Part shown: positions 17,524 to 25,456 of the stretch, in pieces
How the letters are laid out: each line of letters starts with the position of its first letter
How positions within the stretch are numbered: position 1 is the stretch's first letter
Program-made: the position numbers and the translations under genes
Source: an uncultured Veillonellaceae bacterium
GTDB taxonomy: Bacteria > Bacillota > Negativicutes > Selenomonadales > Selenomonadaceae
DNA: 38,479 nt
NCBI GenBank assembly: GCA_902766015.1
Contig: CACXCC010000108.1
Location: 1-38,479, forward strand
Direction: 5' to 3'
Notes under the pieces: generated by a model
The model's input: the letters and a program-made list of their open reading frames with translations, nothing else
What the model was told of the DNA's origin: nothing
Database searches by the model: none

Positions 17524-18162
17524 ATGAACAAATACGGCTACATTCGAGTATCATCGACCGATCAGAGCGAAGCGCGTCAAGTCGACGCCATGCGCGCAAT
17601 CCCCATTTGCGAGTCTTGTCTCTATATGGACAAGCAGTCCGGCAAAGATTTCTGCCGCCCCGCTTATCAGAAACTGGTTCGGAAACTGAAAAAGGGAGAC
17701 GAACTCTATGTTCTCTCCCTCGACCGGCTCGGGCGCAACTATCAGGAAGTCCGCGAGCAGTGGCACTATCTGACGAGTCAACGGGGCGTTGACATCATCG
17801 TCATGGACACGCCGCTGCTCGATACGCGTCAAAGCATGGATTTTCTCCGTCGGTTTGTGGCGGACATGGTCCTACAGATCATGTCATTTGCAGCGGATAA
17901 CGAGCGACGCAATATCCGTTCGCGTCAGGCGCAGGGCATTCGCGCCGCCCGCAAACGCGGCGTTATTTTCGGCCGCCCGCGTCGTCCCGTGCCGCCGTAT
18001 TTCGATAAAATCTGTCAAGACTGCGAGAACGGCCGCATCACGCAGCGGGAAGCCGCAAGACGCTGCAATATGCCGACTTCGACGTTTCGGTATAAATATA
18101 AACATGAGTATAAAGCAAAAAAAGACCGTGACAACCGCTCGTGCGATGATCATGGTCTGTAA
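17524..18162 (+). CDS. Small serine recombinase (resolvase/invertase)
   Basis: A 212-residue serine recombinase of the resolvase/invertase class. The catalytic N-terminal domain starts YGYIRVSS, with R8 and the nucleophile S10. LSLDRLGRNYQEV holds the DRLGR active-site motif. The long E helix runs through MVLQIMSFAADNERRNIRSRQAQGIRAARKRGVIFGRP. The C-terminal helix-turn-helix (about 165-195) reads GRITQREAARRCNMPTSTFR. Length and layout fit a DNA invertase or resolvase, not the large integrases or IS607 TnpA. SD AAGGAGG is 8 nt upstream. It is immediately upstream of a surface adhesin gene whose promoter is bordered by matching short inverted repeats, so control of that promoter by inversion is a reasonable hypothesis. 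Confidence 0.92.
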   Translation: MNKYGYIRVSSTDQSEARQVDAMRAIPICESCLYMDKQSGKDFCRPAYQKLVRKLKKGDELYVLSLDRLGRNYQEVREQWHYLTSQRGVDIIVMDTPLLDTRQSMDFLRRFVADMVLQIMSFAADNERRNIRSRQAQGIRAARKRGVIFGRPRRPVPPYFDKICQDCENGRITQREAARRCNMPTSTFRYKYKHEYKAKKDRDNRSCDDHGL

Positions 18163-18171
18163 ACATCTGTG

Positions 18172-18200
18172 AAAAAGTGTACATATTCGTACACTTTTTT
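18172..18200 (+). terminator. Terminator of the recombinase gene
   Basis: AAAAAGTGTAC (18172-18182) pairs with GTACACTTTTT (from 18189) around a 6-nt loop, with a T-run. The same GTACACTTTTTT word occurs again at 18323. Confidence 0.8.
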
Positions 18201-18245
18201 AACGGCACACAGTCATTCCGATTTAGAATTATTGTGGTCTAATCC

Positions 18246-18274
18246 TTGATTATCTTGTCGTTTTGTGCTATATT
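18246..18274 (+). promoter_or_regulatory. Adhesin promoter
   Basis: TTGATT (18246-18251), 17-bp spacer, TATATT (18269-18274). It reads toward the adhesin, leaving a leader of about 130 nt. Confidence 0.7.
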
Positions 18275-18412
18275 ATAGTTATCTGGTAATTTGTTTTTGT
18301 TTCAAGTTAGATGCGCGAAAACGTACACTTTTTTGTTTGCCTAAAAACGGGGGGCACGGCGGACATCGCAAAAGTGTAAAGGGAGAATAGGGAAATCATA
18401 AGGAGGACAATC

Positions 18413-21400
18413 ATGAATAAGCTGTATAAAGTTATCTAGAACGAAGCAAGACAAATGTACATCGTCGCCTCCGAACTCGCGAAAAGTCACGGCAAATCCA
18501 AAAGCAGCCGCTCGAAAGCCGCGGCGCTGACGCTCGCAGTGACACTTGCACTGACGGGGATGACGGCGGGGACGGTTAATGCGGCGAATAATGCGGAAGG
18601 CAACGGGCAAGGTGTGGCCGTCGGGGAAAATTCAACTGCGCCGAAAGCAGAGAACGTGGCAGTGGGGAAAGGTGCTACGATTAAATATTCTAACGGTGAT
18701 TCGAGTGCTACCGGTGACATTGCTGTGGGGAATGGCGCAAAGATTGACAATTATGTCAGCCAGGGCGGCAGTATTGCAATCGGAAAAAATTCAAATATCG
18801 AGAACATGGCTGGACGTCAGGAAATGCTGTTTAATTTTAATCAGACTACATTTAAGGGGTCTGGATGGTTTGGCCTGCAATCTCCGTTTGTTCCTGCAGA
18901 TCCTGCAAGAGTTCCAGGGAGTATTGCTGTAGGCGAAAATTCATATGCTCGTTCTGGAGGAACGGAGATTGGTATACATAATTACATTGGCAAAATTGGC
19001 GATAAAGATGTAAATACGGGAGATGTAACCGAGGGAAGAAAATATCGTATTAATGTAAATGCGACAACGATTGGTACGAACAGTTTTACTAATGCAGCGT
19101 TTGGAGTCACTACAGGGGCGTATTCCATCATATCTGGCGGATATGATGGTGGGAGTTATTCCAGTAAAGCTGGTCAAAACTTTGGCGCTACTATTACCGG
19201 TTCGTTGAATAGTATTGAATCTGCTACTGCATCATCAGACTATGCAGATTATTCAGGAGTCGGCAATAGCATTGTTGGTGTAGCCAATAGGGAGTTCGAT
19301 TCTAATGGTGCCTTGATTTTTGGAGCGGGTAACGAGATTACGAATTCTATAACAGGAATTGATGCGCCAAGCAAAAGTGGTAAATCCGTACCGGAACTTC
19401 AGAAAGCTCTTAAGAAGGCTATTGCAGATGCCGAAGGCGGCGGCGCGGCCATGGCGATTGGCGGCGGCAACACGATAAATTACGCTCAAAAATCGCAAGT
19501 TATGGGCGTAAACAACAGTTTGTCAGGTGAAGACGGTAATGTCAGCAAGTTTAACTTTATTGACGGTTATAAAAATTCCGCTGAGAAGGTACAGAATGTC
19601 TCTGTATTGGGGTCAAATAATATCGTATCTGAATCAGAAAGCACGAAAATTATCGGCGATAATCGGAAGGTTACGAAGTCAAATAAATCTGTTGTCATTG
19701 GCTCGGCTGATAATAAGACGGAATTAACCGTGAACAATGCGACAATCCTTGGTTATAACGCTAACGTAACGCAAGAAGGCGGCGTAGCTCTCGGCGAAGG
19801 TTCGATTGCTTCCACAGATAAAAATGTCAATGGCTATGATCCGTCTACAGGCAAGGAAACTACAGAAACAAGTGAGGCTTGGGTATCAAAAGCCGCGGCA
19901 GTATCTGTAGGTGATACAGATAAAAAAATTACCCGCCAAATCACGAATGTAGCGGCAGGTAAAGAAGCGACTGATGCTGTCAATGTTGCGCAGTTAATGA
20001 AAGCAACAGATAGTGCAAAGACTCATTATTATGGCGTTGAACAGAGTACGGAAATTGCTAACAGATTTTTCTATGATCATGAAAATACAAAAGCTTATAA
20101 CATCAACTACGACAATGAAGGTGCAGTAGGCTGGAACAGTTTGGCAGCCGGATACAATACGATCGCCAATGGTATTACGGCTACGTCTACTGGTTCCTAC
20201 AACATTATTGGAGATCTCAAGAACCCTCTGAAAAAGCAGGATAAAGCATTGGTCTGGGGCTATGGCTTTAAGGGTGCTACTGCTGCTACATATGGCAGTT
20301 TTAATGCAATTCTTCTTGATGATGAAGACGCGAGACCGTATGACGGGGTAGCAAGTACCGTTGTCGGTCAAGCAAACATCACTGAAAAATCCAATGCCGC
20401 TATCATTCTGGGTGCAGGTAATAAAGTTACTAATTCCTATCTGGATGTAGTCCTCAATCAATCAAGTACTTCTATCTTCGATGCATTACAGGAGGCAGTT
20501 CCTAAAAGTGGCGGCAAAATCATGGCCATTGGCGGGGCGAATAATATTGACAATGCTTATGAGTCTCAGGTCATGGGCGTCGGGAATAAATTGCAAGGCG
20601 TACAGGGTGATTATGACGAAGATACTTCGACCCGTCTGAACTATATTGAGGGTTTCTATAACACAGCAGAAAATGTTCAGAATGCATATATCATCGGTGC
20701 AAATAATACCGTGAAAAATGGTAACAATAATATTGTCTTCGGCGATAAACGTACGATGGACGGTCAGAGCGGCAATATTATTATTGGTTCTGGTGAAGGC
20801 GATGACGGCTTACCAACGACAACGACCGTTTCTAAGGCAATCATCCTTGGCAATAAAGCTAATGTAACCGAAGAAGGCGGTATCGCGATCGGTGAAGGTT
20901 CCATTGCATCTACAGCTGCAGGACAAGTCGGTTATGATCCTTCTGGCAAGAAAGATAAGTCCGGAAATGCATGGAAAGCTACAAATGCGGCTGTTTCCGT
21001 AGGAAATGGAGATAAACTGACGCGTCAAATTACCGGCGTTGCAGCTGGTACACAAGATACGGATGCTGTCAACGTCGCACAGCTAAAACAAGTTCAAAAC
21101 GCTATTGATGCCAAGAAGGATACAAATACAACTTACAAATTGAATGGCACTACGGAAGAGAAGAATGGTGCTACGGAAACAACCATTTCACTGAAAGATG
21201 ATCAGAATAAGGATGCCGGTTCTGTCACTGTCCGTAATGATACGTTAGCAAAAGGGCAGGAAAAGGTTTTGACTTTGACTGATGACAATAAGTTGAAGTT
21301 GAGCATCAAAGACACGGCCGGAAATGAAGCCAAAGGCGAGGTTGACCTTTCAAAATTCAAAAGCGCTGTTGACACGAACACAACCTATACCTTTGCAAGC

Positions 21401-22207
21401 AAGGCAAATGATGACAACACGACGACACTGACGGTCACGGATAGCAACGGTAATACTTCAAAGGCAACGGTCGCAACGAAAGACACGCGCAACACGTTAG
21501 CAGCCGGAGATAATATTTCCCTGAAAGAAGCGAAACAGGCCGATGGCAGCACGCAGTATACGGTTAGCGCTGTGGCAAATGGCAAGGTCGATTCTGGTGA
21601 TAAGGGACTCGTTTCCGGTGATACCGTCTACAAGGAAACGCGTACATCTTCTGACGGCTTCGTGACAAAGAAAGACAATACGGCCGGCGAAAACATCTCG
21701 GCTTTGGATCGTCAGGTCAAATCGAATGCTGACAATATCAACAACATCAACCAGTCCGTCACGAACCTCGGCGGGCGCGTTGACAAACTCGGCAGCCGCA
21801 TCAACAAAGTCGGTGCGGGCGCGGCGGCCCTCGCGGCACTTCATCCGCAGGATTACGATCCGAGCGTCAAATGGGACCTCGCAGCCGGATTCGGCAACTA
21901 CCGTGATGCAAGCGCGGGCGCAATCGGCCTGTTCTACCGTCCGAATCCTGACACGCAGTTCAGTCTCGGGACGAACTTCGGCAACGGCGAAAACATGGTT
22001 AACCTCGGCGTCACGATCAAACTCGGCAAAGGCAGCCAGTACGCGGGACTTTCGCGTGCGGCTCTCATCGAGAGACTTGACGCACAGACGAAGACCATTG
22101 ACACGCTAAAAGCGAAAGACGCCGACCGCGATGCTGTCATCGCACAGCAGCAGCAGGAAATCGAAGCGCTCAAAGCCGCAGTTGAAAAACTCATGGCCAA
22201 AGAATAA
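18413..22207 (+). CDS. YadA-like trimeric autotransporter adhesin with amber codon in ESPR
   Basis: 1264 codons. It opens with an extended signal peptide region, MNKLYKVI-stop-NEARQMYIVAS, then a basic stretch and hydrophobic core ending TVNA (about residue 57). In ESPRs the residue after VI is a conserved tryptophan; here it is TAG (18437-18439), one base from TGG. SD AAGGAGG precedes ATG 18413. ATG 18455, past the stop, has none and would cut the ESPR. The passenger has YadA-head motifs (AVGENS, AIGKNS), necks DAVNVAQL and an internal duplication. The C-terminal anchor is a coiled coil (NLGGRVDKLG) and four-strand barrel ending near VTIKLGKG. About 60 residues of predicted coiled coil follow the barrel. 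Such trimers mediate attachment and aggregation. Whether the protein is made depends on the amber codon. Confidence 0.9.
19110..21090 (+). repeat. Tandem duplication inside the adhesin passenger
   Basis: Two diverged copies of about 0.9 kb, roughly 19110-20005 and 20175-21090. Each runs in the same order through a SIIS/YNII strand, an L/IFGAGN or ILGAGN motif, MAIGG.N, SQVMGV, NAE.VQN, ANVT.EGG.A.GEGSIAST, and the neck TDAVNVAQL. Boundaries are approximate. This middle part is more AT-rich than the gene ends. Confidence 0.75.
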
Positions 22208-22312: not shown

Positions 22313-23407
22313 ATGGTCAAAACTTACCGCTACCGCATTTATCCGAACAAATCGCAGGAAACCATGTTTATGAAGACATTCGGCTGCGTGCGGTTTATTT
22401 ACAACCGGATGCTGTTTGACCGGCTGAAATATTACCGGGAAACGGGGAAAATGCTGTTCAACACGCCCGCGCAGTACAAGGATACCTATCCGTTCCTGCG
22501 TGAAGTTGACAGTCTGGCTTTGGCCAATGCCCAGCTTCACCTCAACAACGCCTATAAAAATTATTTCCAGCGTAAAGGCGCGGGACGCCCGCGGTTTAAA
22601 TCGCGCAAAAGCCTGCACCAGAGTTACGCGACAAATAATCAGCGCGGCTCGGTCCGCATCGAGCGCGGGCATATCCGCCTGCCGAAAATCGGCTTTATCC
22701 GGATTCGTCAGCATCGTCCGTTTACGGGGAAAATCAAGACCGTCACGGTCACCCGGACATTGGGCGGCAGATATTATGTGAGCATTCTCGTCGAGGACGA
22801 AAACCAAGTCCGGGCGATTGACCCGCATACATTTGCCGGCATTGCGTTTTCCCTGCACGGACTTTATGCCGCGTCAGACGGAACCGGGGCGGATATGCCG
22901 CAAAATTGTCTGCGAACTCTGCGCCGTTTGCGGCGGGAACAGCGGAAAATGGCGCGGACCAAACGCAACAGCCGCAACCGTGTCAAACAGCGTCGGCGTG
23001 TGTCAACACTGAGCGACCGCTTTACAAACCAGCGGGCGGATTTCCTGCAAAAAGTCACGACGCAGCTTGCGCGTCAATATGACGCGATCTGCATCGAAGA
23101 GATCTCGGCGCGTAAACTCGGCCGCGAATTCGGCAAAGGGAACCGGATCGGCCACATGCTCACGCGCAAAGGCTGGAGTTTATTCGTCATCATGCTGCAG
23201 TACAAACTCGCATGGCAGGGAAAAGCGCTCATTCGCGTCAATATCCCGCACGGGCGGCTTCTCCGCAGTGACGATCTCGAAGGTGCAAAACGCAGTTTCC
23301 GGCTGCTTCCGCGCGAAAAACGTTCGCCGTTTGCAGACGCCGCAGACTGTGCCGCCGCCGTACGAATCCGTGATAAGGGCCGAAGTCAAATTCCGGCAAC
23401 GGCCTGA
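22313..23407 (+). CDS. TnpB-like protein, apparently nuclease-dead
   Basis: A 364-residue TnpB (IS200/IS605 OrfB) homologue. The N-terminal wedge (YRYRIYPNKSQE, FIYNRML) and the helical bridge are intact. The RuvC fold is recognisable: FAGIAFSLHGLYAASDG aligns with the family's IGIDLGL...SDG, so the first catalytic aspartate is alanine (A178). The glutamate is kept in CIEEIS (E262). The CxxCG zinc finger is absent, and the third aspartate region is altered (FADAADCAAAVRI, possibly D345). The ORF is otherwise open, with SD AAAGGAGGTGA. The typical C-terminal tail (EIFTVGTTG) continues in another frame after about 23395. No TnpA is present. It is either a decaying insertion sequence or a nuclease-dead, TldR-like RNA-guided binder. 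Confidence 0.85.
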   Translation: MVKTYRYRIYPNKSQETMFMKTFGCVRFIYNRMLFDRLKYYRETGKMLFNTPAQYKDTYPFLREVDSLALANAQLHLNNAYKNYFQRKGAGRPRFKSRKSLHQSYATNNQRGSVRIERGHIRLPKIGFIRIRQHRPFTGKIKTVTVTRTLGGRYYVSILVEDENQVRAIDPHTFAGIAFSLHGLYAASDGTGADMPQNCLRTLRRLRREQRKMARTKRNSRNRVKQRRRVSTLSDRFTNQRADFLQKVTTQLARQYDAICIEEISARKLGREFGKGNRIGHMLTRKGWSLFVIMLQYKLAWQGKALIRVNIPHGRLLRSDDLEGAKRSFRLLPREKRSPFADAADCAAAVRIRDKGRSQIPATA

Positions 23408-23563
23408 AATATTTACCGTAGGGACTACGGGAAATCAAGCCTGTATGAGACATGTCAATCATCCTTAGCGCGCCGCGGTACGCCCCGGCGATGACAGGCA
23501 ATGTGTTGTCGATGATTCAGGAAGCCCGCAAACGGCAGAGGCGCCGCAACACGGACAGTCCAC
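23408..23563 (+). ncRNA. Candidate omega-RNA / right end of an IS605-type element
   Basis: Downstream of tnpB a perfect hairpin CCGTAG-GGA-CTACGG (23416-23430) is followed by CAGGAAGCCC (23518-23527) and then AGTCCAC (23557-23563). These match, in order, the conserved right-end/omega-RNA segments of IS605-group elements, which usually end TTCAC. The bases after 23563 would be the guide. This is a reading from remembered element ends, with no structure computed. The remainder of the gap to the ATPase gene (23564-23867) holds direct repeats, a terminator and a promoter. Confidence 0.45.
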
Positions 23564-23622
23564 AGTTATTTTATATTACACGTTTAGACGTAGAGAGAAT
23601 TTGAAAAAGGTCTTTCCCGACC

Positions 23623-23685: not shown

Positions 23686-23725
23686 AAAAATGCCGGCTGC
23701 GGTGGAAACTGCAGCCGGCATTTTT
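23686..23725 (+). terminator. Terminator upstream of the ATPase gene
   Basis: AAAAATGCCGGCTGC pairs perfectly with GCAGCCGGCATTTTT around a 10-nt loop. It insulates the ATPase gene from the TnpB region. Confidence 0.9.
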
Positions 23726-23775
23726 GTAACCGGGAAACTATCGGGGGCGTCTGATGTCAATCGGGGAACTTGACA

Positions 23776-25302: not shown

Positions 25303-25334
25303 GTGTGTTTTCGGTTTTCGTTAATTTTATGAAC

Positions 25335-25372
25335 AAAAATACCGGTTGCGGATGTCCGTAACCGGTATTTTT
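25335..25372 (+). terminator. ATPase gene terminator
   Basis: AAAAATACCGGTT pairs with AACCGGTATTTTT. It resembles the upstream terminator at 23686-23725 in sequence. Confidence 0.9.
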
Positions 25373-25418
25373 ATGCTTTTTGCGGGTTGAAACTACGCTT
25401 TACAGGCGTAAAAAATTT

Positions 25419-25442
25419 AAACCCGTCGAATTCGACGGGTTT
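25419..25442 (-). terminator. Terminator of the small exported protein gene
   Basis: A 24-bp perfect palindrome centred on GAATTC with arms starting AAACCCGTCG. The T-run follows on the minus strand, 14 bp past the stop. Confidence 0.8.
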
Positions 25443-25456
25443 AGGAAATGTCAGCT

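Follow-up and report, generated by a model that had tools for sequence, protein, structure and literature searches.

An amber codon in the extended signal peptide of a putatively phase-variable trimeric autotransporter adhesin from an uncultured Veillonellaceae bacterium

Here, we describe an adhesin gene in DNA from an uncultured Veillonellaceae bacterium that we read, with moderate confidence, as a phase-variable trimeric autotransporter caught in the assembly with its promoter 'on' and carrying, within its extended signal peptide (ESPR), a nonsense allele that most likely silences or weakens the adhesin. Its promoter would lie on a segment of about 130 bp, open to flipping by the neighboring serine recombinase, and in the assembled orientation would face the adhesin, which has a nonsense codon at ESPR position 9. 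Ribosomes starting at the strong site at 18413 would end after 8 codons, and little adhesin would be made, at most by a weak restart at ATG 18455 that would keep the Sec signal and lose the first 14 ESPR residues. The nonsense codon would most likely abolish or attenuate the function of a surface antigen that can be switched in any case; we infer that expression is low and the allele recent. The window (the whole 38,479-nucleotide stretch analyzed; features in Table 1) is contig 108 in an assembly of 2.04 Mb, split into 144 contigs and about 91% complete, and one genome represents the genus in strain comparison, so that one allele of the adhesin is seen.

Table 1. Positions, strands and supporting evidence of the features in and around the adhesin gene
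Feature	Positions	Strand	Evidence
Small serine recombinase (212 aa), likely invertase	17524..18162	+	PF00239 E=9e-28; PHROG 'DNA invertase' E=1e-45; only copy in genome
Left putative recombination site, arm AAAAAGTGTACATATTCG	18172..18189	+	10 bp after recombinase stop; inverted repeat with 18316-18333
Putative invertible segment, 126 bp	18190..18315		between the two sites; homologous architecture in relatives, both orientations
Extended -10 promoter-like site TTGATT-17-TGcTATATT, toward adhesin ('on')	18246..18274	+	weak match by itself
Right putative recombination site, inverted-repeat arm	18316..18333	-	pairs with 18172-18189
Shine-Dalgarno AAGGAGG of the ESPR start	18400..18406	+	sequence, Shine-Dalgarno energy
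First 8 ESPR codons, MNKLYKVI	18413..18436	+	translation; PF13018 match 18413-18556
In-frame TAG, ESPR position 9	18437..18439	+	sequence, PF13018 match
Remaining open frame from ATG 18455: rest of ESPR, Sec-type signal peptide, head repeats, YadA stalk (PF05662), YadA anchor (PF03895), C-terminal coiled-coil tail	18455..22207	+	translation, Pfam
TnpB-like protein, RuvC-I Asp and zinc-ribbon Cys lost (TldR-like)	22313..23407	+	TnpB homology, residue comparison
Region homologous to guide-RNA scaffold of TnpB relatives, ending GTCCAC	23414..23563	+	alignment with 3' flanks of relatives, boundary
Putative guide AGTTATTTTATATTACACG	23564..23582	+	boundary equivalent to TnpB relatives

Direct reading of the sequence confirmed what a first-pass annotation of this DNA had reported, namely an amber codon inside an ESPR, a strong Shine-Dalgarno (SD) sequence before ATG 18413 and an otherwise open gene. 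The AAGGAGG preceding this ATG pairs with an energy of -11.1 kcal/mol, in the top 0.7% among the window's 821 ATGs, and after the 8 codons and the TAG the same frame continues as NEARQMYIVASELAK... (NEARQMYIVASELAKSHGKSKSSRSKAAALTLAVTLALTGMTAGTVNA...) up to the next stop at 22205-22207. The ESPR family PF13018 matches at 64.1 bits (curated cut-off, 25 bits) right across the stop with exactly one TAG inside, giving the gene an N-terminal ESPR above the cut-off in an interrupted frame. Behind the TAG, a trimeric autotransporter frame of about 1,250 codons is open with no second lesion, which would also fit a gene that is still translated and in that respect speaks against our preferred reading. 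The protein encoded there has YadA stalk repeats (PF05662, 65.7 bits) and a C-terminal YadA anchor (PF03895, 29.1 bits), so that the earlier assignment to the ESPR-type autotransporters stands and the adhesin is, by its domains, of the trimeric type (type Vc), with display on the surface as a trimer predicted. Its relatives are found in Mitsuokella, Acidaminococcus, Dialister and Megasphaera, the best being that of M. jalaludinii (45% identity, whole query matched); viral contigs, plasmids and phages, searched for a direct strain comparison, gave no hit.

An internal stop occurs in no other ESPR among about 150 listed matches in 380 class-level genomes, and both remaining ESPR genes of this genome have open frames with sense codons at position 9, so the stop is beyond chance. 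In the 56 starts recovered, one of which is an off-target frame, position 9 is Trp in 49, Tyr in 5 and a stop in 1, the window gene. The annotation had proposed that a single G-to-A change turned a conserved Trp codon into amber; Trp is indeed the residue in 49/56 starts, but it is not invariant, and Tyr is equally possible and closer in homology, being the residue of the nearest homologues (Mitsuokella L031 and L035, Dialister L034) and of L002, a paralogue within this genome. The direction of the codon change therefore cannot be told. The best homologue, from the type strain of M. jalaludinii, DSM 13811 (L031 4958-5030), is frameshifted at ESPR codon 10 and stays open for 1,391 codons thereafter; two lesions at nearly one place, each with an intact frame behind, are suggestive and too few to argue from. 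L031 and L029 share an interrupted start, and since this links the named Mitsuokella homologue to a genome of the 189-genome family, that family appears to be Selenomonadaceae.

The annotation had also suggested an off-state of a surface antigen. A phase-variable surface antigen was a good guess, but the amber codon does not look like its off switch: no inverted repeat of at least 8 nt spans or flanks the codon in the 18380-18720 stretch searched, the genome holds no similar or high-identity donor copy for gene conversion, and no repeat tract lies at the codon. An intragenic inversion around the stop and a gene-conversion donor were both rejected as candidates on these grounds. The switch that is visible is the putative invertible promoter upstream, overlooked in the annotation.

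Upstream of the adhesin, the recombinase frame is intact, and its nearest solved structures are the Sin/Tn552 recombinase and the gamma-delta resolvase. The two arms form an 18-nt inverted repeat with 2 mismatches, 126 nt apart, a pair of a kind that arose in 0/200 shuffles of the region, and the AAAGTGTAC core of the sites is also present after relatives of the recombinase. The element has an adjoining recombinase gene and inverted repeats around a short segment, and is probably a recombinase-linked promoter inverton acting on the adhesin, whose segment presumably flips in this bacterium. The promoter-like match alone is weak (10 such sites found vs 8.1 expected in 5.2 kb), which counts against our preferred reading, and the main support for an inverton in the window comes from the relatives.

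At 12/28 recombinase loci (those with enough sequence, the window's own included), an inverted pair lies within 430 bp downstream; an upstream stretch of the same length, taken as control, gave 2, and shuffling predicts 0.7. The AAAGTGTAC core is common to L047, L049, L052, L053 and L058. The relatives' segments carry a strong promoter, T[GA]GACA-17-TGnTATAAT (TACAAT in L049), which is forward in L048, L049 and L071 and reversed in L052, L053, L058 and L067. Homologous segments align in opposite orientation (L058/L071 over 112 bp, L052/L071 over 87 bp), which, as a pattern seen only between species, reads as a footprint of inversion. Wzz (chain-length determinant) and sugar-transferase (surface-polysaccharide) genes lie behind such segments in relatives. 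The Selenomonadaceae genomes with recombinase-linked promoter invertons are L048, L049, L052, L053, L058, L067 and L071, several of them with the inverton before Wzz or sugar-transferase genes, and other copies of the recombinase family (L046, L051, L063-L066) adjoin flagellar hook (FlgE) or flagellin genes. For Mitsuokella multacida, of the same family, 181 read-supported invertons have been reported, the most in a 125-strain community (PMC11892184).

These comparisons bear on a different account of the upstream element, in which no promoter is inverted and the inverted repeat serves to terminate transcription or, as a res site, to resolve multimers or transposons, an account compatible with every reading of the stop. 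The left site lies within a perfect 28-bp palindrome followed by T's just past the recombinase stop, and resolvases such as Sin are the nearest solved structures; yet the match to the second site, 144 bp away, covers 18 nt and thus extends past the palindromic half, and relatives have promoters, facing either way, between paired sites of this kind. We regard a terminator or res site as possible but unlikely, and keep the promoter inverton. The recombinase-inverton arrangement was not seen at the other ESPR loci read, nor in L031-L037 (the match in L109 being an opposite-strand motif only), so it is not a conserved feature of the adhesin family; this too weighs against a phase-variable adhesin.

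The remaining explanations concern the stop itself. By read-through, an amino acid would be inserted at the UAG and the ESPR completed, an option raised in the annotation that finds some encouragement in TAG being the genome's rarest stop and in the conservation of the ESPR on either side of the codon. Against this, TAG ends 5 of the 193 ORFs that reach 150 aa in 277 kb of sequence from the genome, ORFs of ordinary length, and is thus a rare but working stop; a tRNA search aimed at amber suppression found no CUA anticodon among the genome's typed tRNA genes, an incomplete catalogue from which several tRNAs, tRNA-Trp among them, are missing; and both other ESPR genes of the genome have sense codons at position 9. 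We therefore set read-through aside as highly improbable.

The annotation's suggestion of a weak restart at ATG 18455 fares better, as the restart is possible, but its SD is as weak as supposed. In its strongest form, the 8-codon leader would end at the TAG and the same ribosomes would restart at this ATG, 15 nt past the stop, to make a shorter adhesin with a plain Sec signal as a real, regulated product. In the 43-residue leader that is left, a basic stretch, a hydrophobic stretch and an A-x-A-like end survive, the sequence from ATG 18455 onward still scores 28.9 bits vs the PF13018 cut-off of 25, and the C-terminal part of such signals is usually enough for export (PMC8151025); the M. jalaludinii homologue likewise has its first ESPR codons cut off from a long open frame. 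Set against these points, the SD of ATG 18455 reaches only -0.7 kcal/mol, equaled or bettered by about 79% of the window's ATGs, and no similar SD-led leader precedes a long ORF in 277 kb of the genome. A specially evolved restart codon was not supported, because 6 ESPRs whose position 9 is intact have Met at position 15 as well, so that this residue need not be an adaptation to restart. A functional restart is in our judgment rather unlikely, and the stop would strongly reduce adhesin output. ESPR removal is tolerated by Pet and Hbp and impairs the trimeric adhesins EmaA and Vta9 (PMC8151025, review). Alternatively, the codon might stem from an error in sequencing or assembly, or from a minor strain captured by the metagenome assembly, a sense codon being normal for the species; the fragmented, incomplete assembly, the single allele seen and the otherwise intact gene would agree with this, whereas a single substitution in a non-repetitive stretch is an atypical assembly error and the region has no second copy in the genome that could collapse. 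We hold such an artifact to be distinctly unlikely, and return to a nonsense allele in a promoter-switched adhesin gene as the preferred reading.

Directly behind the adhesin lies a TnpB-like gene with an intact frame. Its product has TnpB homology and has lost a RuvC catalytic residue, the RuvC-I Asp being replaced by Ala where all relatives resolved at the site keep Asp, and it has lost all zinc-ribbon Cys, which nearly all relatives with the region resolved keep (a few TnpB relatives are truncated, and L166 and L167 are without one cysteine each). Nuclease-dead TnpB proteins of this type are known as TldR repressors. Third codon positions differ far more than second positions (0.69 vs 0.29), and with the intact frame this argues that the TnpB-like protein has been kept by selection, although some of the divergence may be older than the loss of the catalytic residue. 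The DNA behind the gene aligns with the relatives' guide-RNA scaffold and ends at the equivalent boundary. In the roughly 91% complete genome, AGTTATTTTATATTACACG has no convincing second match, the only one being to a terminator with 3 mismatches in 18, so that no promoter matching the guide was found in the same genome; the TldR-like protein has no orthologues in 380 class-level genomes or in viral contigs. At 23686-23731, a strong hairpin with a T run (AAAAATGCCGGCTGC...GCAGCCGGCATTTTT) is the likely terminator of the TnpB-like/guide transcript, and at 25303-25451 (+) there is a sub-threshold Rfam RUF4 match (29.9 bits vs a gathering score of 55) that is probably due to chance. One broader interpretation would make the window a domesticated surface-antigen switch composed of the serine invertase, the invertible promoter, the adhesin and a TldR-like RNA-guided repressor with its own guide RNA, in which turning the adhesin on could also repress another surface gene through RNA guidance, an effect reported for flagellin, and the amber would be one damaged or attenuated allele; we consider this doubtful.

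Trimeric autotransporters determine the surfaces to which a gut bacterium adheres and what it presents to host immunity. An adhesin behind a recombinase-linked invertible promoter would join the on/off surface structures of Negativicutes, for which very many invertons and little mechanism are known, and a nonsense allele behind a promoter that is 'on' would illustrate another, irreversible route to silencing as well as offering a natural test of whether a trimeric adhesin needs its ESPR. Nonsense alleles could persist in such a gene because it is off part of the time and under weaker selection; alternatively, loss may be favored in a population locked on. As an event, a nonsense allele is commonplace, and an inverton-controlled adhesin adds to a known kind; novelty would lie in the TldR reading alone. 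If the TldR-like gene works with the adhesin, RNA-guided repression would extend from flagella to adhesins.

Compared with known systems, the window gene shares the ESPR (PF13018) and the YadA stalk and anchor with ESPR-containing trimeric autotransporters (YadA-like, type Vc; EmaA, SadA, Vta9), and differs from them in the stop inside its ESPR and in a coiled-coil tail that follows the anchor. In gut Clostridia (Flavonifractor, Oscillibacter; PMC13418256), loci have been reported that combine hin, a promoter inverton of about 120 bp, csrA/fliC and tldR; the window has an adhesin in place of flagellin, no csrA and no guide target found, as a single example, and shares with these loci the order of invertase, short (here putative) invertible promoter, surface-appendage gene and nuclease-dead TnpB with a guide-RNA-like tail. 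Relative to promoter invertons with a neighboring recombinase (Bacteroides Mpi; gut invertons, PMC11892184), the window recombinase stays well short of the Mpi family cut-off (25 bits against 272), its site is the Selenomonadaceae AAAGTGTAC, and inversion here is predicted from sequence. The arrangement itself is the same, with a recombinase gene beside inverted sites around a short, putatively promoter-bearing segment before a surface-protein gene.
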